A DNA stretch of 52,862 nt from a bacterium. GTDB lineage: Bacteria > Patescibacteriota > Minisyncoccia > Phycocordibacterales > Phycocordibacteraceae. Within the stretch, counting starts at the first letter, position 1; every line of letters begins with the position of its first letter. The stretch spans positions 1 to 52,862 of the forward strand of contig JAHFML010000003.1 of NCBI GenBank assembly GCA_023269085.1. The letters are read 5' to 3'. This document shows positions 13,183 to 49,302 of the stretch, piece after piece. The translations under genes were made by a program, and so were the position numbers. The notes below the pieces were generated by a model. The model did not search any database. It saw only the letters and a program-made list of their open reading frames with translations, and had not been told where the DNA came from.

Positions 13183-13213
13183 TACTGTGCATAACCCCCT
13201 TTACCAACCCATC

Positions 13214-13224
13214 GGGGGGGGGGG
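13214..13224 (+). repeat. Poly-G tract (11 G) upstream of family copy 1
   Basis: TTTACC-aacccatc-G11-c-TACTCT. Confidence 0.9.
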
Positions 13225-13265
13225 CTACTCTAAAGGCACAATCTTTATAAACATACCCACACACA

Positions 13266-13880
13266 ATGAAAGACCTCATCCGTTCTACAATCAAACTAAC
13301 AGCAGCATCCTCTCTAACCCTCCTAGCTTTCTATGCTATCAATGCTCAAGCACAATCAGCTTGGACTCCTCCCTCGTCAACACCACCAGCAGGCAATGTA
13401 GCAGGACCTCTCACAGTCTCTTCTACAGGTCAGAGCAAAGCAGGCAACCTTATGTTGAATACAGATGGTGCTCTTGCTAATGGTCTTATTGTTGCCGCTG
13501 GCAAGGTTGGTATAGGGACGCTGACTCCTACACAAGCATTGGATGTGAGTGGCAAGATCAGAATGGCAACACAGACCGCCACTGCAGATGCCGCGGATAT
13601 CGTCGCGACGAAGGGGTATGTGGACGGGAAGGTCCCAAATGGAGTTTGCCCAAGCGGTCAGTTTGTGACAGGAATTTCTAATGGAATTATTCAATGTGCT
13701 CCTTCTGGCGGAAACCAAATCGTAGGAGGGTGTGACCAAGCGACTATATTCGGATCGAACTGTTGGGGTGGTGCTGATGGTGGCAGATATGCGAATTGTC
13801 CAACAGGTTCAACTCCTCATATTATGGGCGGTAGTAGTAATGATGGCGCTATATTTACTTATTTCTATTGTACGCGATAG
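13266..13880 (+). CDS. Secreted protein, conserved-N/variable-C family, copy 1
   Basis: Signal peptide; SAWTPPSSTPPAGNVAGPLTVSSTGQSKAGNLMLNTDGALANGLIV...VGIGTLTP shared with three other loci. Confidence 0.8.
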   Translation: MKDLIRSTIKLTAASSLTLLAFYAINAQAQSAWTPPSSTPPAGNVAGPLTVSSTGQSKAGNLMLNTDGALANGLIVAAGKVGIGTLTPTQALDVSGKIRMATQTATADAADIVATKGYVDGKVPNGVCPSGQFVTGISNGIIQCAPSGGNQIVGGCDQATIFGSNCWGGADGGRYANCPTGSTPHIMGGSSNDGAIFTYFYCTR

Positions 13881-15192: not shown

Positions 15193-15338
15193 AAGTAGCC
15201 TAAATACGGCGTATATAGGCTACTTCTTGAAATCAGTCATGACAGTCGATACCACCGAGTATAGCCCCGTTAGATTGAGAGTCAACCGGCTCGCGAGATA
15301 GCTGTGGAGAACGCTTTTTGAGGTATATTTCAATAATT

Positions 15339-26007: not shown

Positions 26008-26415
26008 ATGTCCACCATCAATCAGCTCACCCGCAAGGGGCGTAAGGCGAAGCCGTCGAAGACGAGCGTGCCTGCGCTCGCGCGCGGCTTCAACGCGCTG
26101 CAGAACCGCCCGACCTTCTACGCATCGCCCTTCAAGCGCGGCGTCTGCACCAAGGTGACGACCAAGACCCCGAGAAAGCCGAACTCCGCTATCCGCAAGA
26201 TCGCTCGCGTCCGCCTTACCAACGGCATGGAGGTCACTGCCTACATCCCGGCCGAAGGGCACAACCTGCAGGAGCACTCGGTCGTCCTCCTGCGCGGCGG
26301 CCGCGTCAAGGATATCGGTGTGCAGTACACTATCGTGCGCGGCAAGCTCGACGCGACGGGCGTCGACAAGCGCCGGAAGAGCCGCTCGCGCTACGGTGCC
26401 AAGAAGCCTAAATAA
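26008..26415 (+). CDS. rpsL: 30S ribosomal protein S12
   Basis: [11 protein letters not shown]...[28 protein letters not shown]. Confidence 0.97.
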
Positions 26416-26423
26416 TTTTCATC

Positions 26424-26897
26424 ATGCGACGACCACTTAAAAAGCAGCGAACATGGCGACCGGACTTGAAGTACGGCTCGGAGACGCTTACCCGCTTCAT
26501 CAACGCCGTCATGTGGGACGGGAAGAAGGACACGGCCCGTGCGGTCGTCTATGAGGCGCTCGAGAGAATCGAGAAGGACGGTGCCGAGGGTGTGGGCGCG
26601 CTTGAGACCTTCGAGACGGCACTGCGCAATGCGTCGCCTCTCATGGAGGTCCGCTCGCGCCGCATCGGCGGTGCGAACTATCAGGTCCCGCGCGAAGTCC
26701 CGCAGAACCGCCGCTTGGCGCTCTCCTTCCGTTGGATCATCAACGCCGCTCGTAATGGCAAGGGCAAGCCGATGTCCGAGAAGCTCGCCACCGAGCTCCT
26801 CCTCGCCGCCAAGAACGAGGGTGCCGCGATCAAGAAGAAGGACGACATGCACCGCATGGCCGACTCGAACAAGGCCTTTGCCCATTTCGCGTGGTAA
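26424..26897 (+). CDS. rpsG: 30S ribosomal protein S7
   Basis: GSETLTRFINAVMWDGKKDTARAVVYEAL...VRSRRIGGANYQVPREV. Confidence 0.97.
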   Translation: MRRPLKKQRTWRPDLKYGSETLTRFINAVMWDGKKDTARAVVYEALERIEKDGAEGVGALETFETALRNASPLMEVRSRRIGGANYQVPREVPQNRRLALSFRWIINAARNGKGKPMSEKLATELLLAAKNEGAAIKKKDDMHRMADSNKAFAHFAW

Positions 26898-26956
26898 CTT
26901 TGCAATAGCAAAGTTATCTCGAGCGAAGTCGAGAGATTGGAGTTTTATGAAATCAA

Positions 26957-26986
26957 AAAGCCGGCGCATGCGCCGGCTTTTGTTAT
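26957..26986. terminator. Terminator aaaaagccggcgcatgcgccggctttt
   Basis: GC-rich perfect stem with T tail. Confidence 0.7.
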
Positions 26987-27000
26987 GGTGGGTGGAAAGG

Positions 27001-27357
27001 TCAAGTAACTTTGGCGTGCATGGCCAGTGCGCACCAGAGAACTTTCCCCAAGAGCCCCTCCTCTTCGAGGGAGTGTTCGTGAAGCTTTCCATCGACGAAT
27101 TCTTTGTCGCCGATAACTTGATAATCCATCGCTATCGGCCGTTTCCCATCTCTTTCAGATATAAGGACAGACAATGCGGCCTTCAATATGGCAATAGCAT
27201 CTTCCAAGCTCTCACGCGACCAATGAGCTGGGTCGGTTGTTTGGACAAAAAGGAAAAGTTGCCGGTCTGCTTCCTGTAGGAGCTGTTCCTTCTTCGGGTA
27301 TCTGCGCTGTAGTTCGCGCAGGGCGTCATAACCAAGATCTGTTCGAGCTCCATGCAT
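27001..27357 (-). CDS. hypothetical protein (118 aa) inserted between rpsG and fusA
   Basis: ORF opposite in strand to the str operon; start chosen at MHGARTDLG. Confidence 0.5.
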   Translation of the reverse strand: MHGARTDLGYDALRELQRRYPKKEQLLQEADRQLFLFVQTTDPAHWSRESLEDAIAILKAALSVLISERDGKRPIAMDYQVIGDKEFVDGKLHEHSLEEEGLLGKVLWCALAMHAKVT

Positions 27358-27535
27358 GGTGACTCCTCGTATAAAGAATGTTTCCGCTCGGATAGTACTC
27401 CTCTGCGCGGAGCTTTGCAATTCTGCTCGATTGGGCTATGCTGAAGGGAACGCCTCCTAGGCATGCTAAGCATGACTGGACGAGCGTCCGTAACCGGACG
27501 CTGTAGTCGGCGCTTTTTATTTTTATCCTTATTTT

Positions 27536-29683
<2,148 letters not shown>

Positions 29684-29695
29684 GAAAAAGAGTAA

Positions 29696-29733
29696 AGCAC
29701 GCGGCCGCCCCAAAGGGGCGGCCGCGTGCTTTC
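29696..29733. terminator. fusA terminator agcacgcggccgccccaaaggggcggccgcgtgcttt
   Basis: Long perfect stem; duplicated at 30832-30869. Confidence 0.8.
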
Positions 29734-29772
29734 TCATCGCCTATCCCCACCCTCCTCCTTTACCCCACCCTC

Positions 29773-29782
29773 GGGGGGGGGG
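29773..29782 (+). repeat. Poly-G tract (10 G) upstream of family copy 2
   Basis: TTTACC-ccaccctc-G10-TACGCT. Confidence 0.9.
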
Positions 29783-29820
29783 TACGCTACAGGTATATCC
29801 ACCGCGCATAACCCACACCC

Positions 29821-30546
29821 ATGAAAGAACTAACTCGTTCAACGCTCGTCACCATCGTCGCCTCTTCTCTCACCCTCCTCGCCTTCTACGCGATCAACGC
29901 TTCTGCACAATCAGCCTGGACTCCAGCTCCAGCTAACGCTCCCTCAGGCAACGTGGCAGGCCCCCTCACCACGGGCGCAACCGGTCAGAGCAAAGCCGGC
30001 AATCTCATGCTCAACACCGACGGCACCCTCGCCAACGGCCTCATCGTCGCGAATGGGAATGTGGGGATTGGGACAATAAACCCTGGTAGCAAGCTTGAGG
30101 TTGTTGATGGAACCCTTGAGGTTGTTGATGGAACCATCAGAAGTGATTTCGTTAATAATGCGCGTGGGAATACATTGACTCTTAACGGAGGGAAATCAAA
30201 TTTCCAAGTGTGGCATAATAGTGAGAAGTTTGTTAATTTGCTGAATACATCAGGGGATGGAAATGGTGCTGGATTTAAATTCCTTGATTACGACGGTAGT
30301 AGCGGCGGTGCATTGAACGTCGACACTTTGCCAGCGAGTATGGTCATAACGAATGCTGGTAAAGTCGGCATTGGGACGCCGAATCCAGCGGCTATGCTTG
30401 AGGTGAATGGAGAGTTCCGTCTCGGCGCCAATGCTAAAGCAGGAACGGTCTGTAACCTCGAAGGGAAAGTCTCTTTCGATTACAACTTGCATGCTCCCGT
30501 ATACTGCAACAATATCGGCGTGTGGACCGCTCTAGCCCATAATTAA
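29821..30546 (+). CDS. Secreted protein, conserved-N/variable-C family, copy 2
   Basis: Near-identical 5' module to copies 3 and 4; VGIGTxNPxxxLEVxG repeats. Confidence 0.85.
   Translation: MKELTRSTLVTIVASSLTLLAFYAINASAQSAWTPAPANAPSGNVAGPLTTGATGQSKAGNLMLNTDGTLANGLIVANGNVGIGTINPGSKLEVVDGTLEVVDGTIRSDFVNNARGNTLTLNGGKSNFQVWHNSEKFVNLLNTSGDGNGAGFKFLDYDGSSGGALNVDTLPASMVITNAGKVGIGTPNPAAMLEVNGEFRLGANAKAGTVCNLEGKVSFDYNLHAPVYCNNIGVWTALAHN
30094..30135 (+). repeat. Perfect tandem repeat 2 x 21 bp (cttgaggttgttgatggaacc)
   Basis: Encodes LEVVDGT LEVVDGT within copy 2. Confidence 0.95.
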
Positions 30547-30651
30547 CTGTTAGTGAAAGCACCCGCACAATCGGTGGTCGTGACGCGGAGCGCGCTGTGC
30601 ATACCTGGTTTGCACAAAACGCCCGGCAAGAGCTCGAAGACGATGAAATAG

Positions 30652-30819
30652 GTTGCTCGTGCTCTCGGTGAGAATGGCGTTGTCGACACAGAGTTTGCCG
30701 AGAAGCGGCTGGTAGAGATGGCGGGATACCGCAATCGTCTGGTCCACTTCTACGATGATATAACCGCGCGCGAGTTGTACCGTATCGTGGTGAATGATAT
30801 CATCGCGAGTAGGAAGTAA
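30652..30819 (+). pseudogene. HepT-like (DUF86) toxin C-terminal fragment fused to fusA-like 3' end
   Basis: LGENGVVDTEFAEKRLVEMAGYRNRLVHFYDDITARELYRIVVNDIIASRK*: RNxxVHxY HEPN motif. Confidence 0.7.
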
Positions 30820-30831
30820 GAAAAAGAGTAA

Positions 30832-30869
30832 AGCATGCGGCCGCCCCAAAGGGGCGGCCGCGTGCTTTC
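30832..30869. terminator. Duplicate of the fusA terminator
   Basis: One substitution relative to 29696-29733. Confidence 0.8.
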
Positions 30870-30908
30870 TCATCGCCTATCCCCACCCTCCTCCTTTACC
30901 TCCCCCTC

Positions 30909-30918
30909 GGGGGGGGGG
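30909..30918 (+). repeat. Poly-G tract (10 G) upstream of family copy 3
   Basis: TTTACC-tccccctc-G10-TACGCT. Confidence 0.9.
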
Positions 30919-30956
30919 TACGCTACAGGTATATCCACCGCGCATAACCCACACCC

Positions 30957-31646
30957 ATGAAAGAACTAACTCGTTCAACGCTCGTCACCATCGTCGCCTC
31001 TTCTCTCACCCTCCTCGCCTTCTACGCGATCAACGCACAAGCACAATCAGCCTGGACTCCAGCTCCAGCTAACGCTCCCTCAGGCAACGTGGCAGGCCCC
31101 CTCACCACGGGCGCAACCGGTCAGAGCAAAGCCGGCAACCTTATGCTCAACACCGATGGCACCCTCGCCAACGGTCTCATCGTTGCGAATGGGAATGTGG
31201 GGATTGGGACGCTTACTCCTAACACAACTAAAGGCACTAGCGGCTACCTTGACGCCAAAGACGTCTATCTCCGTGACGCCGGGAAGTGGGCGAGTGAGGT
31301 TGGGGGGGGCGGAAGTAGTGGTGCCGCGAAGGTATGGGCAAATTTTGAAGGCACTAATTGTAGTGGAGCCAACGGATGCATAATACGAGCACAGTATGGT
31401 GTGTCTAAGATTCTAAAGACTGGATCTGGAATCTACAGAGTCTATTTTACTACTCCGATGCCAGACACAAATTATGTAACAATTGGTGTTAACAACGGGC
31501 CAGGATGTCAGTGGTCTATTGGTGGTGTGGCTGCAGATTATTCTAATAAGACAGTGGATTCAGTAACTATTAGGACTCCTAATTATGATGCGTGTACTTT
31601 CAACACTATAGACCGATACGATGTTGAGTTCGTTATATTTAGATAG
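30957..31646 (+). CDS. Secreted protein, conserved-N/variable-C family, copy 3
   Basis: 5' module near-identical to copy 2 at constant 1136-bp offset; divergent 3' part. Confidence 0.85.
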   Translation: MKELTRSTLVTIVASSLTLLAFYAINAQAQSAWTPAPANAPSGNVAGPLTTGATGQSKAGNLMLNTDGTLANGLIVANGNVGIGTLTPNTTKGTSGYLDAKDVYLRDAGKWASEVGGGGSSGAAKVWANFEGTNCSGANGCIIRAQYGVSKILKTGSGIYRVYFTTPMPDTNYVTIGVNNGPGCQWSIGGVAADYSNKTVDSVTIRTPNYDACTFNTIDRYDVEFVIFR

Positions 31647-36514: not shown

Positions 36515-36606
36515 GGAGACGTGGCTGAGTGGTCGAAAGCACCTCACTGCTAACGAGGCAGGGACGTTAAACTCCCTCGTGGGTTCAAATCCCACCGTCT
36601 CCGCCA
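36515..36606 (+). tRNA. tRNA-Ser(GCT), CCA encoded
   Basis: GGAGACG/CGTCTCC acceptor, anticodon loop CTGCTAA, long variable arm, GGTTCAAATCC T-arm, GCCA. Confidence 0.95.
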
Positions 36607-38100
36607 AAATTCAAAATCGGAATTGGAAGCCGAAATGGGGTCGCGCCGTAGGCGCGACACAAACGCATTCCCGCCAAAAATTCCTGAATCCAAAAGGTTT
36701 TTCCACGCTCCGCGTGGTTCAAAAAAGACGGTTCGATCCTTAATTTGAAAGTTCGAACCGACTTTTTGAAGTAAACGGATTTTTTCTCCGTTTACTTCCT
36801 CGTTTGCCAATTCCACATTGTATTTCAAAAACTTTTCGGTAAGTTCGAACCGATTATTCGCTTTTTGCTCAAAAGCCGATAATTTCTCTTTGAGAAGCTG
36901 TTTTTGATTAACTAGCGTGCTTTTAGCGCCCCGATATTCCTCTAGCGAAAGTGCGCTCTCTAAATAAGCATTCATCAGCTTCTCAATTTTAGAATCCAAA
37001 AGAGAAATTTCGGCTTTTGTGTTGTCTGCAAAAAGCGTAGACGACTGGATTTCTGATTGCCGATCTTTTGCGTTTTCGGCAATCATCCATTTAGCCCAAT
37101 CGTCTGGCAAAGAAACTTTTTTGATTTCCTTATTGATTTCGGAAGTGATGATTTCCTCGCGAGTATATTTTTGCGAACAAGGATTTTTCCGTTTGGTACA
37201 TCGCAAATAATTATGACCTTTCTGTGTCTCGGTAGTGATGAAGCAACCACACTCTCCGCAACGGAAAAATCCTCTGTACAAAAATGGTTTCAGTCCGCGA
37301 GATTTCGGCTTACTTTTTCGCATCATCACTTCCTGAACGGAATCAAAAAGTTTCTTTGAAATAATCGGTTCGTGCTTTCCCTCAAAAATCTCTCCGTTGT
37401 ACAACATCAATCCTGTATAGATAGGATTTTTGAGAAGTTTTTGATAATTCGACACCGCAAGTTCCTTTCCGCTTTTTCGCTTCAATCCAAGCCCATTAAA
37501 TTTGTCGCGGAGTTCCCGCAAAGTGAAGTTTCCGGTGGAATATGCCTCAAATGTTTTGCGAATAAGTGGAGCAAGTTCGGGGTCTGGCACAATACGCTTG
37601 TTTTTGTTCACATAGCCCAATGGCGACATTTGAGGCCATATACCTTCCTTCACTTTGTTTCTATGTCCACGCTTAATATTCTCCGACAAATTGTCCACAT
37701 AATACTTGGATTGCGAAAAGGCGATTGAGAGCATGAATTTGCCTTGCGGTGTCGGATCAAACCAAAAAGTTGGGAATTTCATTTCAGAAATTACACCAGT
37801 ATCAACGAGGTAGATGATCTTTCCTCCATCTACCGAGTTGCGAGCAAGTCTATCGGGATGCCACGCCAAAATACCAGTGGCTTCACCTTTTTCCATTCGC
37901 TCTATCATTTCATTAAACACGGGACGACCTGGTATTTTGGCGGTCTGCTTCTCGACAAAGACATCAACCACATCAAGCTGTTCTTTCAACGCTAACTCTT
38001 TTAATTCACTTAGTTGGTCAGCAATACTGCGGACTTGTCTGTCTTTGTCATCCGTAGACTTGCGAGTATATATGAAAAACTTTTTGGTTTGATTATTCAT
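36550..38100 (-). CDS. large serine recombinase (resolvase + recombinase + zinc ribbon)
   Basis: FIYTRKSTDDKDRQVRSIADQL, GILAWHPDRLARN, PLIRKTFEAYSTGNFTLRELRDKFN, FRCGECGCFITTE; C-terminus reads through the repeat into antisense tRNA-Ser. Confidence 0.92.
   Translation of the reverse strand: MNNQTKKFFIYTRKSTDDKDRQVRSIADQLSELKELALKEQLDVVDVFVEKQTAKIPGRPVFNEMIERMEKGEATGILAWHPDRLARNSVDGGKIIYLVDTGVISEMKFPTFWFDPTPQGKFMLSIAFSQSKYYVDNLSENIKRGHRNKVKEGIWPQMSPLGYVNKNKRIVPDPELAPLIRKTFEAYSTGNFTLRELRDKFNGLGLKRKSGKELAVSNYQKLLKNPIYTGLMLYNGEIFEGKHEPIISKKLFDSVQEVMMRKSKPKSRGLKPFLYRGFFRCGECGCFITTETQKGHNYLRCTKRKNPCSQKYTREEIITSEINKEIKKVSLPDDWAKWMIAENAKDRQSEIQSSTLFADNTKAEISLLDSKIEKLMNAYLESALSLEEYRGAKSTLVNQKQLLKEKLSAFEQKANNRFELTEKFLKYNVELANEEVNGEKIRLLQKVGSNFQIKDRTVFFEPRGAWKNLLDSGIFGGNAFVSRLRRDPISASNSDFEFWRRRWDLNPRGSLTSLPR
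36601..36721. repeat. Inverted repeat A, left arm (121 bp)
   Basis: Matches reverse complement of 38122-38242; starts at the tRNA 3' CCGCCA. Confidence 0.9.
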
Positions 38101-38121
38101 AGAATTGTATTGGCAAACGAG

Positions 38122-38242
38122 TGAACCACGCGGAGCGTGGAAAAACCTTTTGGATTCAGGAATTTTTGGCGGGAATGCGTTTGTGTCGCGCCTACGGCGC
38201 GACCCCATTTCGGCTTCCAATTCCGATTTTGAATTTTGGCGG
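38122..38242. repeat. Inverted repeat A, right arm
   Basis: Reverse complement of 36601-36721. Confidence 0.9.
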
Positions 38243-38441
38243 TGTGTATTGGACAAAGTTCGAATGTATTTCGGACAAAATCCGCAGGATTTTGACTAAT
38301 AATCTTTGCGCCTCGCACGCTCCCTTCGGTCGCAATCCCAAAACCAAAAATTTCCTTACTTTTCCTTCTTCGGCGGGGGGTGTGGGGGGAGCCGGCAAAA
38401 AATGGAAAGGAAAATTTTTGGTTTTGGTTCCGACGCTTCAT
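38236..38441. repeat. Inverted repeat B, left arm (about 206 bp)
   Basis: Matches reverse complement of about 44106-44312 with few differences. Confidence 0.9.
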
Positions 38442-38533
38442 AATCCAATTATTCACACTTGTATTATAACTTATCATTGAGTCAAAACACAAGAGAATGC
38501 TATAATATCCGTGTTGATAAGTTTTCATACAAT

Positions 38534-38743
38534 ATGGCAAAATCCACAGCACAAAAATTTGGCGAAAATATGAAAAAAATTCGCCTTGAAAAAAGCATGT
38601 CGCAAGGCGATATTTGCCGAGAGTTAGGTTTAGATAGAGCGTATATAAGCAATGTTGAGAACGGCAAACAAAACCTTACAATCAGTACAATGGAAAAGGT
38701 CGCCAAAGCGTTGGGAGTTAGCATAGATCAACTTTTAAAATAG
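38534..38743 (+). CDS. XRE-family HTH regulator (R-M controller-like)
   Basis: KFGENMKKIRLEKSMSQGDICRELGLDRAYISNVENGKQNLTISTMEKVAKALGV; extended -10 TGCTATAAT upstream. Confidence 0.88.
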   Translation: MAKSTAQKFGENMKKIRLEKSMSQGDICRELGLDRAYISNVENGKQNLTISTMEKVAKALGVSIDQLLK

Positions 38744-38745
38744 TT

Positions 38746-40419
38746 ATGAGCAAGCTTAAAGACATGCCAAATGTAGACCGCCCGCGAGAAAAATTTCTTG
38801 CGAAAGGTGCCGATGCTTTAACCAAAAGCGAACTTTTGGCGATTTTACTGGGAAGTGGAATAAAAGGCACAAATGTTAAAGAACTTTCGCAAAAAATTCT
38901 GCGAAAATTTGGGAATGGCTTTTTGCATGCAACCGTTGACGAGTTAGTACAAATTCCAGGAATCGGAAAGGCGAAAGCGTTGCAAATTGTTTCTGCGCTC
39001 GCCTTGGCTCGCAGAATACAGGAGGAGCAAAACAGTCCCGATAATCTTATTTTGTCCGCCAAAGACGCATTGTCATTGGTTTCGGACTTGAAAGACGCAA
39101 AAAGAGAAAACCTCGTCTGTTTGTACTTGAATGCACGAAATGCGTTACTTAAAAAAGAAATTGTTTCAGTCGGCACATTGGACAAGAGTTTGATACATCC
39201 GCGAGAAATTTTTGCACCAGGTCTTGAAGCACACGCAGCAGGGGTCATTCTTGTTCACAATCATCCGTCTGGGGATCCAAGCCCGAGCGAACAAGACAAA
39301 CAAGTTGCAAAAAGAATTATTGATGCAGGACAGTTAATGGGTATAAATGTTATAGATTTTCTTATCATCGCAAAAAACGGCTCCCATAGCGTTTTGGGAG
39401 AATTACAAAATACGGAACTAACTAATACGGAATATGTTGCAGAAGGTATTCAATCTTCACTTTTTGATTTAATGGTAGACGCAAACCAAGCATATTTTTA
39501 CGGCGTAAATAATAAGGTTCCAGAAAACAAAGGCAAAAAGGACGCTTTGAAGTTTATAGATCTTTTTGCTGGAATCGGTGGCTTTCATGTCGCCTTTCAT
39601 AATGCTGGCAGTGAGTGTGTTTTTGTCTCCGAATGGGACGAACCTGCACAACAAACCTATAAACATAACTTTTTCAAGCTATCGCCAGAGGTATTTCGCT
39701 CGGGAAATTTTGTCGGCGATATAACGAAAATCAAACCGAATGATATACCCGATTTTGATATTTTGACTGGAGGTTTTCCTTGTCAGCCATTCTCGCAAGC
39801 TGGCTTTAAAAAAGGATTTAACGAAACTCGTGGAACTTTATTTTTCGATATTGTTAAAATTTTAAAAGAAAAAAAGCCCCGTGCTTTTTTTCTGGAAAAT
39901 GTCCGCGGTTTATATAATCATGATAATGGTAAGACGTTTGAAACCATAAAAAGAGTCATAACGGAAGAACTGGGATATTCTTTCTTCCAAAAAATTGTAA
40001 AAGCTTCTGATTTTGGCTTACCGCAACACAGACCCCGCTTGTTTATGGTTGGATTCAGAGATAAATCCATTAACTTCAAATTTCCCGAACCTGTCAAAGA
40101 ACTCAAATATACAATGTCGGATATATTCGGCGGAAAATGCGATAAAGAGGTCGGCTTCACATTGCGTGTTGGTGGACGAGGGAGCAAGATAACTGACAGA
40201 AGAAATTGGGACGCATATCGAGTAAACGGAAAAATCGTACAACTTGGACCAAAGGAAGGGTTAAAAATGCAAGGGTTCCCAGATTGGTTTGAATTTCCGC
40301 AAGGCATTTCCAGCGTCCAGTCCATGAAGCAATTGGGTAATTCCGTCGCTATTCCCGCAATACAGGCTGTTGCTGAAAAAATAATTGAAACATTGAATGA
40401 ATATGATCAAAGAAAATAA
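38746..40419 (+). CDS. RadC (JAB/MPN) domain fused to DNA cytosine-5 methyltransferase
   Basis: N-term LTKSELLAILLGSGIKG...ILVHNHPSGDPSPSEQD (RadC); C-term FIDLFAGIGGFHVAF, GGFPCQPFSQAG, FFLENVRGL, QHRPRLFMVG, QLGNSVAIP (Dcm motifs); one uninterrupted 557-aa frame. Confidence 0.92.
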   Translation: MSKLKDMPNVDRPREKFLAKGADALTKSELLAILLGSGIKGTNVKELSQKILRKFGNGFLHATVDELVQIPGIGKAKALQIVSALALARRIQEEQNSPDNLILSAKDALSLVSDLKDAKRENLVCLYLNARNALLKKEIVSVGTLDKSLIHPREIFAPGLEAHAAGVILVHNHPSGDPSPSEQDKQVAKRIIDAGQLMGINVIDFLIIAKNGSHSVLGELQNTELTNTEYVAEGIQSSLFDLMVDANQAYFYGVNNKVPENKGKKDALKFIDLFAGIGGFHVAFHNAGSECVFVSEWDEPAQQTYKHNFFKLSPEVFRSGNFVGDITKIKPNDIPDFDILTGGFPCQPFSQAGFKKGFNETRGTLFFDIVKILKEKKPRAFFLENVRGLYNHDNGKTFETIKRVITEELGYSFFQKIVKASDFGLPQHRPRLFMVGFRDKSINFKFPEPVKELKYTMSDIFGGKCDKEVGFTLRVGGRGSKITDRRNWDAYRVNGKIVQLGPKEGLKMQGFPDWFEFPQGISSVQSMKQLGNSVAIPAIQAVAEKIIETLNEYDQRK

Positions 40420-41491
40420 CAAAGGAGAATGGTCGGAATTTTACGCTTTCCTTAAAATTCTTGAGGATAGAAAACTTTTTGCAGCGGACAAAAATCTTGA
40501 AATAATAGATGGAAAGTTTTTCGTATTTCACAAAATATTCAGAGACGAGAAAGACGAACCCGTTAAAATTTATGATCTTTCACAATCGGACACGCAAGTA
40601 ATAATCACCGACGAAGCAGGAAGAACCATTAAAGAGTTTGACTCCTCCGTTTTGAAAGAAAAGACATTGAAAATTTTTGAACGAATCAGAGATGAAAAAA
40701 GTCGATCATTCACAATTCCAGAAGCGTGCGAGCTCATGGAGGAATTGCTTTGCACAAAAGTAAAAGCAAGTAGTAGTGAAAAAGCTGATCTTGTTGCGAT
40801 TATCTATGATCGGATTTCTAAAACAGCACCGATGCTCGGATTCTCCATAAAATCTATGATCGGAGGAGCATCCACATTGCTTAATCCTGGTAAAACTACA
40901 AACTTTGTTTTTGAAATAAAAGGTTTTACAGGCAATGTGGATGAAGTGAATGCCATAGAAACAAATGCTCAAATTCGTGATCGTGTTAAAAAAATATCGG
41001 AACAAAACGGAGTTTTTGATTTTGTAGGGGTGTCCAATGAACAGTTTTCCTCGAACATGAAAATGATTGATACGGCATTGCCAGAGTTTATCGCATCAAT
41101 GCTTTTGGATTTTTTCTCAAACAGTCGGAAAACAGTTGCGGATCTGGCAGGTGCTCTTTCGGAAGATGCAAAAATAACCACAAAGTACGGACTATCTCTC
41201 ACAAACTACGAATATAAAATCAAAAACTTTTTGGACGCGGTCGCGCTTGGTATGGTGCCAAGCAAACCCTGGGACGGTTTTGCTAAAGCACATGGTGGGT
41301 ATATTGTCGTAAAAGAAAATGGCGATGTGGTTTGTTATCACTTATACAATCGTGATGAATTTCGAGCATATTTATACGAAAACACGAAGTTTGACGCGGC
41401 AAGCACAACTCGTTATGAATACGGCAAGCTATACGAGAAAAATGGAAAGCTGTTTTTTAACCTCAACCTGCAAATTAGATTTTTGAAATAG
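40397..41491 (+). CDS. HpaII-family type II restriction endonuclease (probable)
   Basis: NKGEWSEFYAFLKILEDRKLFAADKNLE start and YEYGKLYEKNGKLFFNLNLQIRF end typical of the HpaII family; overlaps the MTase gene. Confidence 0.75.
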   Translation: MNMIKENNKGEWSEFYAFLKILEDRKLFAADKNLEIIDGKFFVFHKIFRDEKDEPVKIYDLSQSDTQVIITDEAGRTIKEFDSSVLKEKTLKIFERIRDEKSRSFTIPEACELMEELLCTKVKASSSEKADLVAIIYDRISKTAPMLGFSIKSMIGGASTLLNPGKTTNFVFEIKGFTGNVDEVNAIETNAQIRDRVKKISEQNGVFDFVGVSNEQFSSNMKMIDTALPEFIASMLLDFFSNSRKTVADLAGALSEDAKITTKYGLSLTNYEYKIKNFLDAVALGMVPSKPWDGFAKAHGGYIVVKENGDVVCYHLYNRDEFRAYLYENTKFDAASTTRYEYGKLYEKNGKLFFNLNLQIRFLK

Positions 41492-41507
41492 AGAGAACAT
41501 TTAAACT

Positions 41508-42926
41508 ATGAAAAATAAATTTATAAAAAAGGATATTTCGATAAAAGGCTTGTCTCTTTGGGATGAAAATGCACGTTTCCCAGATAAATATTTTAGTAAG
41601 ACAGAGAAGGAGCTTATTGGTTATTTTGTATCCAAAAAGGATTTTAAGATAAATGAATTTTCTGAAGAAGTTGTAAAGGAGTTTGATTTGCCGCAACTAG
41701 AAAAATTGGTTGTATATGAGTTTAATGGCAAAAAAATAGTTTTGGAGGGCAACCGTCGTCTTGCGGTTTATAAACTTTTAAATGATCCAAAATTAACTGA
41801 CGATACGAAACTGCAAGGCAAGCTTACTGGTTTAAGATCGAAGATAAAAATTGACGATAATTTTAAGCTAGAGTGTTTGATTTCTAAAGACAAGGAGCAG
41901 GGTCTGCGGTATATAAACAGGAAACACTTGCGAGGCAATAACGAAGTTTCTTGGGGTGATAATGAGAGAGCTCATCATAATGCACGTGGAGGGAATGCAA
42001 ATCAAAAAGAACTCCTGAAAGTTGCAATTACTAAAGTCATCAAAGATCTTGAACTTCCAGAACAATTGAAGGAACAAGTATTGGGACATGGTTTTGTAAC
42101 TACCCTTTGGAGGTTAGTTGAACAAAAGCCAGCGTGGTCTGCCTTTGGATTTTCACTTGATAAAAGCGGAGAACTAAAAATCACAGACAAAGATTTTAAG
42201 GACAAGCTAAAAGTTATTATTTTTGATGTTCTGCAAAAGGGTAAGTATAACGGAAAGCTATTTTCGCGTTTAAATGTAAAAGACATCGAAGGTTATTTGG
42301 GAGGAATTACAAAAGAAGATTATAAAAGAGTTTCTGATGACATAAAGAAACAAACCAAGACAGATCTTTTTGGCAAGGAATCAACTATCATTGCTTCATC
42401 AGGAAACAATGGAAACCGAAGTAATCCAAAATCATCACTTCGTGATTATTTAATTCCAAAAACGTGTGTATTTCAAATTCACGAAACAAAGATCAATAAT
42501 ATTTACTGCGAACTTAAAAATGACCTTTTGATTGATGACTCGAAAAAGGCTGTGCCAAATGCCGTCGGGGTATTATTTAGGGTTTTCTTAGAAATATCCT
42601 TGGATCACTATGCAAAAATGAATAGTCATGGATTTAAAAAGACAGATACAATTAATCAAAAAATTTCTTGGGTCGTCAAAAGTTTAGAGGGCAAGAAATA
42701 TGATAAAAAGAAGTTTAACAATATAAACAAAGTTGGTTCTGCAACAGGCACAAAAAGTTATTTATCAATAGAAAATTTCCATGAATATGTTCATTCTGTA
42801 ACAACACAGCCAACATCGAGTGAATTGAAGGGAAAATGGGACAACCTGCAAGGATTTTTTGAAATCCTATGGGGAGATTTGAATAAAAAAGCAAAATCTA
42901 AAAAACAATATGCAAAAAAGAAATAG
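41508..42926 (+). CDS. ParB/Srx-like (EGNRR) N-terminal domain protein with HEPN-like C-terminus
   Basis: LWDENARFPDKYF...KLVVYEFNGKKIVLEGNRRLAVYKLL; C-term NFHEYVHSVTTQPTSSELKGKWDNLQGFFEILW. Confidence 0.65.
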   Translation: MKNKFIKKDISIKGLSLWDENARFPDKYFSKTEKELIGYFVSKKDFKINEFSEEVVKEFDLPQLEKLVVYEFNGKKIVLEGNRRLAVYKLLNDPKLTDDTKLQGKLTGLRSKIKIDDNFKLECLISKDKEQGLRYINRKHLRGNNEVSWGDNERAHHNARGGNANQKELLKVAITKVIKDLELPEQLKEQVLGHGFVTTLWRLVEQKPAWSAFGFSLDKSGELKITDKDFKDKLKVIIFDVLQKGKYNGKLFSRLNVKDIEGYLGGITKEDYKRVSDDIKKQTKTDLFGKESTIIASSGNNGNRSNPKSSLRDYLIPKTCVFQIHETKINNIYCELKNDLLIDDSKKAVPNAVGVLFRVFLEISLDHYAKMNSHGFKKTDTINQKISWVVKSLEGKKYDKKKFNNINKVGSATGTKSYLSIENFHEYVHSVTTQPTSSELKGKWDNLQGFFEILWGDLNKKAKSKKQYAKKK

Positions 42927-43776
42927 AAAAAAAATATCGGGTTTCTCTAGCCCCTTGCGTTATCCAGGCGGGAAAACTCGACTTGCCAATAAACTACTTG
43001 AGGCAATGGAGAAAAACTTTGACCAAAAAGAAAAAGTGGTTTTGGTGGAGCCATATGCTGGTGGAGCGGGGGCTTCACTTGCTCTGCTTTTTGCCAAAAA
43101 AGTTGAAAGAATTGTTATCAATGATCTTGATAAGGCTATTTTTACTTTCTGGAAAATAGCTGTGTCTGATACTGACTATTTAATAAATAAAATAAAACGA
43201 ACAGAAGTTACTATTGAGGAATGGAGAAGGCAAAAAGCAATATACATTTCAACAAAAGACGAACGAAAACTTGCATTTGCGACTCTGTTTTTAAATAGAA
43301 CAAACCGTTCTGGGATTATGAGAGGTGGACCAATAGGCGGATTTGATCAATCTGGAACATGGAAAGTGAATGCTCGATTTACTAAAAAAACAATCATTGA
43401 TCGTCTAGAAAAAGTAAAAGAATTCCGTAATAAAATTGAGGTAAGTAATCTGGACGGAGTAGCATTGTTAAAAAGATTGGAAAAACGCAATAGTGAGAAT
43501 CAATATTTTATATTTCTTGACCCGCCATATTTTCAAAAAGGACAATCTTTATACCTAAACCATTACAACAATGAGGATCATGAAAATCTGTCAGAATTCT
43601 TGAGAAAATCATCTTTCAAAAAATGGGTTATGACTTATGATGATGTGCCGTATATTAAAAACTTGTATGCAACAATGCGTACTAAGGGGTTTGCAATTCA
43701 GCATAATGCATACGAATCCAAAATAGGCAGAGAGGTTATGATTTTTCCAAAAGGGTTTACCCCTGTGAATATTTAA
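42910..43776 (+). CDS. D12-class (Dam-like) DNA N6-adenine methyltransferase
   Basis: PLRYPGGKTRLANKLL, VEPYAGGAGASLALL, FIFLDPPYFQKG. Confidence 0.93.
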   Translation: MQKRNRKKISGFSSPLRYPGGKTRLANKLLEAMEKNFDQKEKVVLVEPYAGGAGASLALLFAKKVERIVINDLDKAIFTFWKIAVSDTDYLINKIKRTEVTIEEWRRQKAIYISTKDERKLAFATLFLNRTNRSGIMRGGPIGGFDQSGTWKVNARFTKKTIIDRLEKVKEFRNKIEVSNLDGVALLKRLEKRNSENQYFIFLDPPYFQKGQSLYLNHYNNEDHENLSEFLRKSSFKKWVMTYDDVPYIKNLYATMRTKGFAIQHNAYESKIGREVMIFPKGFTPVNI

Positions 43777-44105
43777 GGGAGCCGTCCGCGTTAGCGGATG
43801 GGCTTTGTGCGCGCACTGGGAGGGTGGGGCAAGCACATATAAAATTGTTTGTGCCTCACACAATCCGCCTTTCAGAGTTACCACAGACTCAAACGAAGTC
43901 ACAGAGCGAACACGAAGCAACGCCGAGCAGGCATCGTGAGCGAATGCGAACGGCCTATGCGAGGTGGTGCGAAGTGTGAGCGGACTCTCGAATTACCACA
44001 AAACGCGGATATGGGAGCGCCTCGCACCGACGCGAATGACGGAAGAAAGGACGGACAAAATACTGCCACAATGCTAAAATATAAATACAAGTCCTTTCTG
44101 GAGGA

Positions 44106-44312
44106 ATGAAGCGTCGGAACCAAAACCAAAAATTTTCCCTTCCATTTTTTGCCGGCTCCCCCCACACCCCCCGCCGAAGAAGGAAAAGTAAGGAAATTTT
44201 TGGTTTTGGGATTGCGACCGAAGGGAGCGTGCGAGGCGCAAAGATTATTAGTCAAAATCCTGCGGATTTTGTCCGAAATACATTCGAACTTTGTCCAATA
44301 CACACCGCCAAT
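44106..44312. repeat. Inverted repeat B, right arm
   Basis: Reverse complement of 38236-38441. Confidence 0.9.
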
Positions 44313-44318
44313 ATATTT

Positions 44319-44995: not shown

Positions 44996-46078
44996 ATGTC
45001 GTTCTTCGATTCGCTATTTACGAAAAAAGAAGGAAGCGTGCTCGGCGTCGACATCGGGTCGTCGTCGCTCAAGGTCGTCCAGCTGCGCCGCGAGAAAGGG
45101 CAGGCCGTGCTTGAGACCTATGGCGAGCTCGCGCTCGGGCCGTATGCGGGCGTCCAAGTCGGACAGGCGACGAATCTCTCGGCAGAGCAGATCGCCGAGA
45201 CGCTCAAAGATCTCCTGCGCGAGGCGAAGGTGACGACGACCAACTGCGGCGTCTCGATTCCCTTCGCGCGGTCGCTCCTCTCTCTCGTGCGTCTGCCCTA
45301 TCGCAAGAGCCAGCAGGAACAGCAGACGATTATCGAGCTCGAAGCGCGCAAATATATACCCGTGCCAGTGAGCGAGGTCCAGCTCGACTGGTTCGTCGTG
45401 CCGAAGATGGAGCTCGGCGGGAGGGAAGATGAGAGAGAAAAGGATACCGTCGAGGTGCTGATCGTCGCGGTCCACAATGACGAGCTCGCGCTACTGCAGA
45501 GCGTCATGGCGGGCGCCAGTCTCGCGGCGACCTTCTACGAGATCGAGATCTTCAGCACTATTCGCGCGGTCGTCGATGAACCGGTCAAGCCGGTGATGAT
45601 CCTCGACCTCGGCGCCGCCTCGACGAAGGTCTACATCGTCGAACACGGCGTCGTCGCGCTCTCGCACTCGATCGGCACCGGCAGTCAAGACATCACGCGC
45701 GCGATTGCCGTCTCCTCGGACGTCTCACTCGCTCGCGCCGAAGCGCTCAAGAAGGAGCGCGGGCTCCTACGCGACAGCGTCTCGAGCAAGAATTCAGAAG
45801 TCATATTCTCGAACATCTTTTCCGAAGCGCGCCGTGCCATGGTGCAATATGAGACGCTTCATAAGCGGGCGGTCAGCTCTATCATGCTTACCGGCGGCGG
45901 CGGCGTGACCAAGGAGTTGAGCGCGTATGCGAAGCAGACATTCTCGATCGATGTGCGCGTAGCGAACCCGTTCGCGAAGACGGCCGCACCGGCCTTCATG
46001 CGCCCAGTGCTCGAAGAGATAGGGCCAGAGTTCGCCGTCGCCGTCGGCCTCGCCCTCCGCAAGCTTGAGGAAGAATGA
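44996..46078 (+). CDS. pilM: type IV pilus assembly protein PilM
   Basis: VLGVDIGSSSLKVVQLRREKG...; actin-like ATPase motifs DLGAASTKVYIVE, LTGGGG. Confidence 0.9.
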   Translation: MSFFDSLFTKKEGSVLGVDIGSSSLKVVQLRREKGQAVLETYGELALGPYAGVQVGQATNLSAEQIAETLKDLLREAKVTTTNCGVSIPFARSLLSLVRLPYRKSQQEQQTIIELEARKYIPVPVSEVQLDWFVVPKMELGGREDEREKDTVEVLIVAVHNDELALLQSVMAGASLAATFYEIEIFSTIRAVVDEPVKPVMILDLGAASTKVYIVEHGVVALSHSIGTGSQDITRAIAVSSDVSLARAEALKKERGLLRDSVSSKNSEVIFSNIFSEARRAMVQYETLHKRAVSSIMLTGGGGVTKELSAYAKQTFSIDVRVANPFAKTAAPAFMRPVLEEIGPEFAVAVGLALRKLEEE

Positions 46079-46104
46079 TAGCCGCAACATGCTAGAATGA
46101 CGCT

Positions 46105-46566
46105 ATGAAGAAGGAGATGGAAAAAACAACGAAACAAGAACCGACTATTTCGGATGTTATGAGAGTCGTGGGCGGTTTGACGGGGGAAGTAGGCAGTCTC
46201 ACGGGAAGAGTAGATAGTCTCACCGGCACCGTAGAGAATCTCACCGGGAAGGTAGACAGTCTTGCCGAATCTTTACAAGATCTGACCGAAGCTGTGCAGA
46301 CTGGCTTCGCTAGACACGAGGAGATACTTGTTGGACATGGAGAAGTGCTTGCTAAGCATGACCAACTTCTGAAAGCCTTGGTCGAAGGGCAGAACAACCT
46401 CACCGAACGAGTCGGCGATATTGATCGACGGCTCATCGCTACGCAGAATCGCGTTGAAGATATCGCGGACATGTTCGAGAGCACGACCGATGTTGTCGAC
46501 GAAAGCCGCGACCAGATCTTCGGTCATGAAGTGCGCATCACGCGGCTTGAAGGAGTAGCAGTATAA
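46105..46566 (+). CDS. coiled-coil protein with heptad repeats
   Basis: GGLTGEVGSLTGRVDSLTGTVENLTGKVDSLAESLQ; paralogous to the ORF at 48403. Confidence 0.7.
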   Translation: MKKEMEKTTKQEPTISDVMRVVGGLTGEVGSLTGRVDSLTGTVENLTGKVDSLAESLQDLTEAVQTGFARHEEILVGHGEVLAKHDQLLKALVEGQNNLTERVGDIDRRLIATQNRVEDIADMFESTTDVVDESRDQIFGHEVRITRLEGVAV

Positions 46567-46599
46567 GTTATACACAATGATTTCCTTTACTCTACCCTC

Positions 46600-46606
46600 G
46601 GGGGGG
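46600..46606 (+). repeat. Poly-G tract (7 G) upstream of family copy 4
   Basis: TTTACT-ctaccctc-G7-TACGCT. Confidence 0.9.
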
Positions 46607-46653
46607 TACGCTAGAGGAGTATCTCTTACTTCACTTCTAGCCACATTCTCGCT

Positions 46654-47550
46654 ATGCGCACGCTCCTCACCTCAACCCTCAAGATGTTCGTCGCCTCTTC
46701 TCTCACCCTCCTCGCCTTCTACGCGATCAACGCTTCTGCACAATCAGCCTGGACTCCAGCTCCAGCTAACGCTCCCTCAGGCAACGTGGCAGGCCCCCTC
46801 ACCACGGGCGCAACCGGTCAGAGCAAAGCCGGCAATCTCATGCTCAACACCGACGGCACCCTCGCCAACGGCCTCATCGTCGCGAATGGGAATGTGGGGA
46901 TTGGGGTGTTGAACCCGGATTATCTACTTGATATTAACGGTACCTTTGCGGCTAAGTATAATCTGGACATGAAATCAGGGATTTCTCAGATCGCATGGAA
47001 CAGAGACTCTCGTACCGGATCTATTTATGATTCAGCTCACCACGCATGGCAGCTTGGGCCAACGTCGGTGTCCAATGATGGGTTCAGCATAAAACACTTC
47101 AGCCCATCTGGTACTTACTCGGGAGGAGTCATATTTTCAGTAGATGACAACGTCGGTGTCGGGACACAAACACCGAACGTCTCGAAGGGGGCTGGCGGGT
47201 ATGTCGACGCCAAAGACGTCTATCTCCGTGACGCCGGGAAGTGGGCGAGTCAGGTTGGGGGAGGGAGTGGGAGTATCGTAGCAGGATGCACATCAAAAAG
47301 TCCGACGGGGATAGAGTCAACTTGGATAGATCCTAGTATTTATAATTTTTACAATTGTTTTGGAGGCGCATCTGGGAAGGTGAAGTCAAATGGTGGATGG
47401 GGGGGTGCTCCTCTTGTGACAGCGTCTATGACGTGTCCTACGGGTTCAACAGTTCAAGCGACAGGTCTCTTCCCTATAAGTTATCAAGCAGATGGTTATT
47501 CGAATCCTAGCAGCGGAGCTCTAACGGCGTTTCTCTGTCTGAAGAGTTAA
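46654..47550 (+). CDS. Secreted protein, conserved-N/variable-C family, copy 4
   Basis: 46690-46905 appears identical to 29857-30072 (copy 2). Confidence 0.85.
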   Translation: MRTLLTSTLKMFVASSLTLLAFYAINASAQSAWTPAPANAPSGNVAGPLTTGATGQSKAGNLMLNTDGTLANGLIVANGNVGIGVLNPDYLLDINGTFAAKYNLDMKSGISQIAWNRDSRTGSIYDSAHHAWQLGPTSVSNDGFSIKHFSPSGTYSGGVIFSVDDNVGVGTQTPNVSKGAGGYVDAKDVYLRDAGKWASQVGGGSGSIVAGCTSKSPTGIESTWIDPSIYNFYNCFGGASGKVKSNGGWGGAPLVTASMTCPTGSTVQATGLFPISYQADGYSNPSSGALTAFLCLKS

Positions 47551-47570
47551 TCCGTCAAGACGGATGTCGA

Positions 47571-48344
47571 TTACTGGTACTCCATTTTCAGGATACTTGT
47601 AAGTTCGGACACGGGGATGCGGAGCGTCTGCGGGCCGGCGGCATACGGCGCGACTGCATAGGGAGCGAAGAGGATGACGAAGTCGCGATTATCGAAGAAG
47701 AAGTTCGAGAAGTTCTTCTCGTCTGGCGTGGTGCCCGGGTTGATGAAGCTCTTTTTAAAATCGGCATCTTCGCCGATGACGCTGGGCAGTTTGGCGCGGC
47801 TTATTTCGGAGAGCTTCGCGAGATACTTCGAATCTGCGAAGAGGTCAGCGAGCGAGAGCTCTGTGCCCGTCGTGGTGTCGAAGGTGAAGGTACGGAAGTA
47901 CATATTCGGATGCGCGCCGAAGGTGTTCTCATAGAGGGTGAAGATGTAGGAGACGGTGCGCGGCGAGGAGGCAACGAGATATTTTATTTCCAACGCTTCT
48001 TTATGATCGGCGCTGAAGCCTATGGTCGCGATATCGTCCGGCGTGAGGTTGGCGAAGTTTCCATCAGTCTTGAACTGCGCGATAGTGTCGCCGACGAATT
48101 TTTTCATGCTCGCGACGGCGACGGCATCGGCCGAAGTGCTAATCCTTATAAGCGGCGTGCTCGTCGCATAATAAGCCGTGATGTCGTAGTACTTCGCGTG
48201 CTCGGTGTAGCCGCCCGCGGGCAAGCCGGAGGTGTCGATGACGACCGAGAGCGGCTTGGTCGATTTGAAAATGAAGAACCCGGCGAGACCGACAATGATG
48301 GCGACACCGACAACACTCCCGAGAGCGATAAGTACTTTTTTCAT
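47571..48344 (-). CDS. membrane-anchored protein, DUF3298/RsiV-like
   Basis: N-terminal TM; TFTFDTTTGTELSLADLFADSKYLAKLSEI; PYAVAPYAAGPQTLRIPVSEL. Confidence 0.75.
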   Translation of the reverse strand: MKKVLIALGSVVGVAIIVGLAGFFIFKSTKPLSVVIDTSGLPAGGYTEHAKYYDITAYYATSTPLIRISTSADAVAVASMKKFVGDTIAQFKTDGNFANLTPDDIATIGFSADHKEALEIKYLVASSPRTVSYIFTLYENTFGAHPNMYFRTFTFDTTTGTELSLADLFADSKYLAKLSEISRAKLPSVIGEDADFKKSFINPGTTPDEKNFSNFFFDNRDFVILFAPYAVAPYAAGPQTLRIPVSELTSILKMEYQ

Positions 48345-48402
48345 ATAGGGACAGTATAACAAAAGTCATCGTGCCCGAGAACGACATGGTATGCTATTCG
48401 GT

Positions 48403-48822
48403 ATGACTCCCGAGAAGAAATCAAAAGGAGAGAAGCAGTCAGCAACTGAAAAGTCGTTGAAGTCGATCGAAAAACACTTCTCCGTTATTGAAGAACAGAT
48501 TGAACACGGATTTACGCGGATGCACGCGCGCATGGACGATGAGTTTGAGCAAGTAAGTGCGCGATTTGAGAAGGTCGAGCGTGGCGTTCGCGCGCTTCAG
48601 ACCGGGCAGGACAACTTATACGAGCGGGTGGAGGAGATTCATCGCCGCACGGTAAATCTCGAACTTCGCGTCGAAGATGTTCGCGATACGCTTGCTGATA
48701 TTGTTGGGGCAGAAGAGAAGGACGCCGAGGCGACGATCAACCACGAGTTCCGCATCGCGCATCTCGAGCGCCTCGGCGGCATTATGAGCGCTCCGCCGCC
48801 CCACCTCGTGGGGCTCGAATAG
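48403..48822 (+). CDS. coiled-coil protein, paralog of 46105-46566
   Basis: TGQDNLYERVEEIHRRTVNLELRVEDVRD vs EGQNNLTERVGDIDRRLIATQNRVEDIAD. Confidence 0.65.
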   Translation: MTPEKKSKGEKQSATEKSLKSIEKHFSVIEEQIEHGFTRMHARMDDEFEQVSARFEKVERGVRALQTGQDNLYERVEEIHRRTVNLELRVEDVRDTLADIVGAEEKDAEATINHEFRIAHLERLGGIMSAPPPHLVGLE

Positions 48823-48916
48823 CTGGCACGCCACCTGCTTGTTGACGATTTAGAGCAGGTGCGGTATCTTGGCAGTATCCCGTAGTTCAGTCGGATTTTT
48901 GGCTTGCGCTTGTGCG

Positions 48917-48936
48917 CCTGCCTGCCGGCAGGCAGG
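48917..48936. repeat. Palindrome CCTGCCTGCCGGCAGGCAGG
   Basis: Perfect 20-bp palindrome in the rpsS leader. Confidence 0.85.
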
Positions 48937-48954
48937 GGTTTTTCATTACTTCCT

Positions 48955-49302
48955 ATGTCACGATCACTCAAGAAAGGACCCTTCGTGGACGCTAAGCTCC
49001 TGAAGAAGATCCTCGATAAGAAACCGGCTGAAGCCGGCGTGATTCGCACCTGGGCCCGCCGGAGCCAGATAAGCCCCGATATGCTCGGATTCACCTTCGG
49101 CATCCACAACGGCAAGAGCCATGTCGAGGTGACCGTGTCTGAGGACATGGTCGGACATCGCCTCGGCGAGTTCTCGCCGACGAAGAAGTTCGTCCGCCAT
49201 GGCGGCAAGATGCAGAAGGAGCTGGAGCAGAAGCGCCAGCAGGCCGAGATAACCGCCGCGAAGGCCGCCAAGGCGTCGCCCGCACCGGCGAAGAAGAAAT
49301 AA
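48955..49302 (+). CDS. rpsS: 30S ribosomal protein S19
   Basis: [15 protein letters not shown]...[45 protein letters not shown]. Confidence 0.97.

Follow-up and report, generated by a model that had tools for sequence, protein, structure and literature searches.

How does one gene come to share a perfectly identical stretch with another when the codons that precede it and the domains that follow it are unlike? The question is raised by a gene near the end of the window, the stretch of 52,862 nucleotides analyzed here, which makes up positions 1-52862 of contig C9 in a genome of 710,721 bp (14 contigs). The DNA is that of a tiny, probably parasitic bacterium, Patescibacteria-like to judge by its small genome, its gene content and a single distant contig match.

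An identical N-terminal block

The first-pass annotation described positions 46690-46905 as identical to 29857-30072, between 5' codons and 3' variable parts that differ. All 216 positions indeed agree, and the exact match reaches 218 bp (46688-46905 against 29855-30072, both on the forward strand; 100%). The block comprises codons 13-84 of a gene that we refer to as D46 (298 aa; 46654-47550, forward strand), and its partner lies in B29 (241 aa; 29821-30546, forward strand), directly 3' of fusA. Codons 1-12 of the two genes are unlike (MRTLLTSTLKMF versus MKELTRSTLVTI), and the sequences cannot be aligned after the residues NVGIG.

The 72 shared codons show no difference at 59 synonymous and 157 non-synonymous sites (Nei-Gojobori, D46 versus B29), whereas the first 12 codons have 6.3 differences at 9.2 synonymous sites and 13.7 at 26.8 non-synonymous sites. 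The first 119-121 bp of the block are also identical in a third copy, G33 (C5:33541), and the remaining pairs with similar heads differ at 5-16 positions across the same stretch. A chance match is rejected, with four copies in the window and seven in the genome. Because synonymous divergence is zero inside the block and near saturation just before it, and because the edges are sharp, the comparison is best explained as was proposed earlier, by a recent gene conversion or a transfer of the N-terminal module as a cassette. The pattern supports recent recombination, which may have been a conversion or a crossover and may have run in either direction.

A dispersed family of seven genes

The four copies noted by the first-pass annotation are all present in the window, while the genome total is seven; a shared linker, the poly-G promoter-like elements and the connection to the reverse transcriptases (RTs) of diversity-generating retroelements (DGRs) had escaped it. 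The module is dispersed over two contigs, in genes A13, B29, C30, D46, E93 (C9:93322), F116 (C5:116568) and G33. C30 (229 aa; 30957-31646, forward strand) has a tail-fibre-like C-terminus, and A13 (204 aa; 13266-13880, forward strand) is the diverged member, the N-module of which shows 69% identity in DNA and 76% in protein.

All seven proteins open with a Sec-type signal sequence (e.g. ...YAINASAQS) followed by a common stalk, which extends to NVGIG in six copies and stops short at codon 52 in G33. The linker GGYVDAKDVYLRDAGKWAS forms a second common module, present in five copies genome-wide. In D46, which consists of signal peptide, N-module, a first variable region, linker and variable C-terminus, the linker is encoded at 47206-47265, and this DNA is 96.7% identical to that of C30 at 31251-31309 (both forward strand).

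The C-termini of the family are mostly unrelated to one another. We obtained matches to PHROG tail fibres for C30 (E 1.7e-10) and for the C-terminal half of B29 (E 8e-08), and E93 matches a phage tail spike (E 4.4e-07). No match above cut-off was found in Pfam or NCBIfam, and a search of the PDB returned nothing useful. From the signal sequences and these weak matches, which underlie the tail-fibre annotation, we infer that the proteins are secreted and tail-fibre-like. A contig search for the family identified one distant locus, in a Paceibacterota MAG. Between the tandem copies B29 and C30 (window 30560-30795) lies a fragment with a likeness to the C-terminal end of a HepT-like protein (MAGYRNRLVHFYDD...).

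Mosaic structure and chromosome order

D46 is also identical to G33 over 209 bp (100%), from the end of a poly-G tract in its 5' region to codon 52. Its 5' part is therefore a composite of the 209-bp stretch of G33 and the 218-bp stretch of B29, with a 121-bp overlap common to all three genes. Since D46 carries no private substitution across the composite stretch, it is, judged by its sequence, a two-parent recombinant with the crossover within the 121-bp overlap.

Other members bear marks of rearrangement as well. A segment at 29660-30074 (forward strand) recurs in tandem at 30796-31210 (96.6%); this duplication, which involves B29 and C30, spans the 3' end of fusA, a terminator-like repeat, the promoter and the N-module. 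In F116 the likeness to the family begins 13 bp before the ATG. In relative G024, the overlap of contig end C6e with C3, like that with C5, amounts to exactly 127 bp of the module. Of 28 matches to the family in relatives, 10 are no more than 250 bp away from a contig end, against an expectation of 1.2. Homogenisation of the module is seen in relatives also.

The genes fusA and tuf, rplB and rpsS, and pilM and pilN are adjacent in canonical order. All three pairs are broken here (window 26008-29683 and 44996-49302; C9:88189-97792), with fibre genes at the breaks in the orders fusA-B29, rplB-E93-pilN and pilM-D46-rpsS, together with short other reading frames at some of them; the pil names are our reading of the sequences. 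In most of the relatives examined, rpsS is no farther than about 1.4 kb from rplB, and in none did pilN follow rplB. Either the fibre genes recombined with one another, or the assembly is mis-joined at these breaks.

Poly-G tracts in promoter-like elements

Six of the seven genes share an upstream layout of TTTAC(C/T), 8 nt, a run of G and TAC(G/T)CT; in A13 an additional C precedes the final element. By resemblance, the outer elements are putative -35 and -10 sequences. On the forward strand of the window the layout occupies 46586-46612 in D46 (TTTACT, a 15-nt spacer ending in G7 at 46600-46606, TACGCT), 29759-29788 in B29 (TTTACC, an 18-nt spacer with G10 at 29773-29782, TACGCT), 30895-30924 in C30 (TTTACC, an 18-nt spacer with G10 at 30909-30918, TACGCT) and 13200-13231 in A13 (TTTACC, a 20-nt spacer with G11 at 13214-13224, TACTCT). 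The G-run measures 11 nt in A13, 10 in B29 and C30, 7 in D46, 13 in E93 and 11 in G33, giving putative spacings of 20, 18, 18, 15, 21 and 19 nt, respectively; as MAG consensus values these tract lengths may be in error by a base or two. The G-tract is absent upstream of F116. The promoter-like element was not among the hits when the D46 region was scanned with a simple sigma-70 model.

Runs of at least nine G occur eight times in the 710,721 bp, five of them at fibre promoters and two at the 5' ends of DGR RTs. The eighth (9 G; C9:148559-148567, reverse strand) lies near a contig end with no obvious gene downstream. Between D46 and G33 the tract differs by four Gs (7 versus 11), while the next 209 bp are identical. 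This points either to a tract that changes much more quickly than the sequence around it or to a recombination edge at this place.

The pattern of G10 followed by TAC is found eight times in 39 same-genus genomes: at four of the genome's own fibre promoters, at three DGR RTs and in one contig-end element, which matches the fibre promoter. The reversed pattern does not occur in these 39 genomes. Relative G014 has a G9 tract at one fibre gene, and in G026 a G12 tract precedes TACGCTCAAGGAGTAT at a contig end. Members in G024 (L045, G024:C2) and G026 (L057, G026:C6) have (CT)8-12 in the signal-peptide region, just after an out-of-frame ATG. The putative fibre switch is lineage-specific, because most family members in other species of the genus are without a repeat.

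Simple-sequence repeats at DGR RTs

We identified two complete DGRs on contig C9, at 70.6-73.3 kb and 107-109.4 kb (loci L076 and L077; 70600-73300 and 107000-109400). In these, 19 of 20 and 12 of 13 TR/VR mismatches fall at template adenines. The RTs match RVT_1 (E 3e-24 and 3e-25), and adjacent proteins match bAvd with E values of 8e-04 and 1e-09, neither of which reaches the curated cut-off of Pfam. Judging from the combination of an adenine-biased TR/VR pair, an RT and a bAvd-like protein, both loci are genuine DGRs. The fibre genes were considered as targets and rejected, as they share no 12-mer with the TR of either DGR.

In both DGRs a G-run sits where the divergent avd and RT genes meet. 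We sampled RTs by protein similarity, blind to repeats, and scored simple-sequence repeats just 5' of the conserved RT start. A repeat is present in 117 of the 135 RTs sampled from the order and the phylum: 17/24 in the same genus, 28/29 plus 54/60 (39/40 and 15/20) in the same order, and 18/22 in the phylum outside the order. None of eight phage DGR RTs has one, and runs of at least seven G are absent from 64,800 strand-bases of neighbouring sequence. The G-run is often replaced, in the same place, by (TTCG), (CTGA), (TTGG), (ATTG), (GT), (CT) or (GA). Slippage is favoured over a fixed site because these unrelated repeat units take the place of the G-run.

Where the repeat is a G-run, it is directly followed by TAnnnT in 33 of 92 cases, and the commonest RT start codon lies 13 nt past the run (24/92), as expected for a leaderless mRNA beginning just after a -10 element. 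Translation through the tract is unsupported as a general rule for DGR RTs, since 24 of the 92 have an in-frame stop between the G-run and the RT, and since each of the three frames is represented among the tract lengths. Taken together, the sequences favour a promoter-spacing switch at DGR RTs. In DGR2 of this genome an ATG precedes the tract. Only tracts of 9 or 12 Gs would put it in frame, and the assembled tract of 10 Gs does not; this element may therefore have a translational switch, as may G010. The RT matches of G658:C5, G533:C5, G709:C9, G711:C11 and G530:C12 are split near residue 185 within one open frame, which suggests a short insertion before the GLPLGNLTSQ motif.

Alternative explanations

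The copies could be recent whole-gene duplicates with C-termini that diverged quickly under selection, with no conversion or cassette exchange. B29 and C30 do belong to a tandem duplication, which takes in the 3' end of fusA. For D46, however, the idea is already contradicted: this gene joins the head and 5' UTR of G33 to the body of B29 with no mismatch in either part, and its synonymous sites relative to B29 are near saturation in the head and identical in the body. Additionally, the C-termini are unalignable, which goes beyond mere divergence, and we regard whole-gene duplication as most improbable. It is decidedly unlikely, too, that the block or the mosaic arose from mis-joined repeats in a short-read MAG, even though the 218-bp exact repeat is longer than the usual k-mers and assemblies of relatives break at the N-module. 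The canonical rplB-rpsS order is broken at E93 and D46, and re-pairing these two would restore both rplB-rpsS and pilM-pilN; however, D46 and E93 share no exact match longer than 95 bp. Assembly collapse is rejected because two 5' heads and two 3' tails exist under either pairing and the G-tracts of the copies that share a head stay distinct (7 versus 11 G).

The poly-G tract could also be a fixed cis-element, such as a protein-binding site, a G-quadruplex or a ribosome-binding element, rather than a slippage switch. Its near-constant position before the -10-like element and the predominance of G-runs would fit this idea, but tract lengths range from 7 to 14, and di- and tetranucleotide repeats of unrelated sequence occupy the same place in many genomes. 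With other repeat units able to substitute for the G-run, a fixed function is disfavoured and seems unlikely. Recombination among copies, combined with slippage at the tracts, is the reading that we develop below.

Neighbouring elements

A probable mobile element is located at window 36550-44314. It encodes a serine recombinase (36550-38256, reverse strand), a fusion of RadC-like and cytosine methyltransferase sequences (38746-40419) and a second DNA methyltransferase-like gene (42910-43776). Perfect inverted repeats of 121 bp (36601-36721 and 38122-38242) lie on either side of the serine recombinase region, and inverted repeats of 209 bp (38233-38441 and 44106-44314) on either side of the rest of the element; these repeats suggest invertible segments. 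Elsewhere in the window, a UvrD/PcrA-like helicase (15318-18338) contains an apparent intein (CLIAGTQITVPDG ... VEHTHNFIANGMTTHN) at its GDIDQ motif.

Proposed model

We consider it likely that a dispersed, mosaic family of fibre genes is maintained by recombination and switched gene by gene through its G-tracts, with the RTs of the DGRs switched likewise. The identical block is the common N-terminal cassette of dispersed, putatively secreted, tail-fibre-like proteins. Homologous recombination between copies, which the sequences demonstrate and which may proceed by conversion or crossover, would keep the signal-peptide and stalk module near-identical while joining it to other promoters and other C-terminal domains. 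If strand slippage added or removed Gs, the promoter spacing (15-21 nt in six copies) would shift, and each fibre gene may in this way be turned up or down independently. The outcome would be a stochastic, combinatorial repertoire of surface fibres, plausibly serving in host-cell attachment or phage evasion. A similar switch on the RTs of both DGRs would probably make targeted hypermutation phase-variable too, through a presumed effect on expression.

Phase-variable expression of both the mosaic fibre family and the DGR mutator is what we infer from these sequences; promoter function, switching, the role and surface location of the fibres and a benefit to the cell are all part of that interpretation. 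We also lean towards a broader proposal, in which DGR RTs are under a simple-sequence-repeat switch across Patescibacteria-like genomes and a similar poly-G switch spread to the fibres of this lineage, giving two-level diversification.

If this is correct, chance would decide in each cell whether the targeted mutator and the individual fibres are on. Ultra-small, mostly uncultured bacteria that are thought to live attached to other cells would then own antigenic-variation machinery like that of classic pathogens, and would do so in genomes of less than 1 Mb. With a repeat switch at the RT start, only some of the cells would carry out targeted hypermutation. Such switching might help explain the inactive look of some DGR target regions in metagenomes; single-nucleotide variants have been detected at 70.1% of VR loci (Roux et al.; PMC8144416).

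Comparison with known systems

A Patescibacteria-only clade of DGRs, clade 2, was described by Roux et al. 2021 (PMC8144416). The two DGRs identified here, candidate members of this clade, have an RT, a bAvd-like protein and an adenine-biased TR/VR pair as well; the fibre genes are targets of neither DGR. Searches of the open-access literature turned up neither repeats at the 5' end of DGR RTs nor phase variation in Patescibacteria, and two-level diversification is undescribed for this Patescibacteria-like group in the papers searched.

In the shufflon, a constant N-terminus of PilV is combined with alternative tail-fibre-like C-termini. The fibre family likewise joins a constant N-terminus to alternative tail-fibre-like C-termini; unlike the shufflon, it consists of dispersed complete genes, with no inverted cassettes or invertase at the loci. 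A shufflon operating by inversion is rejected, as self-comparison yields direct copies of the modules only, and no recombinase was seen other than the serine enzyme encoded by the element at 36.5-44.3 kb.

Promoter homopolymers underlie phase variation of Bordetella fim. Poly-C promoter phase variation has been described for meningococcal opc (cited in PMC3960869). The fibre genes resemble both in carrying a promoter homopolymer, here between -35-like and -10-like elements, and differ in that the homopolymer is found on a paralogous fibre family and on DGR RTs and is known from sequence.

In organization the family also resembles the opa genes of Neisseria, which number 3-4 in meningococci and up to 11 in gonococci, carry CTCTT repeats in the leader-coding region and recombine within strains (PMC3960869). 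Like opa, the fibre genes form a dispersed multigene family of putative surface proteins with a putative repeat switch at most loci and recombination between loci: there are seven loci on two contigs, six of the seven have the repeat, and D46 is a mosaic. The (CT)n in the signal-peptide region of relatives G024 and G026 is a further similarity. Identity with Opa is rejected, as the fibre proteins have no Pfam or NCBIfam match above cut-off. The protein is unrelated and the phylum is different; in this genome the putative switch consists of poly-G in the promoter-like element, and the C-termini are unrelated domains in contrast to the hypervariable loops of opa.
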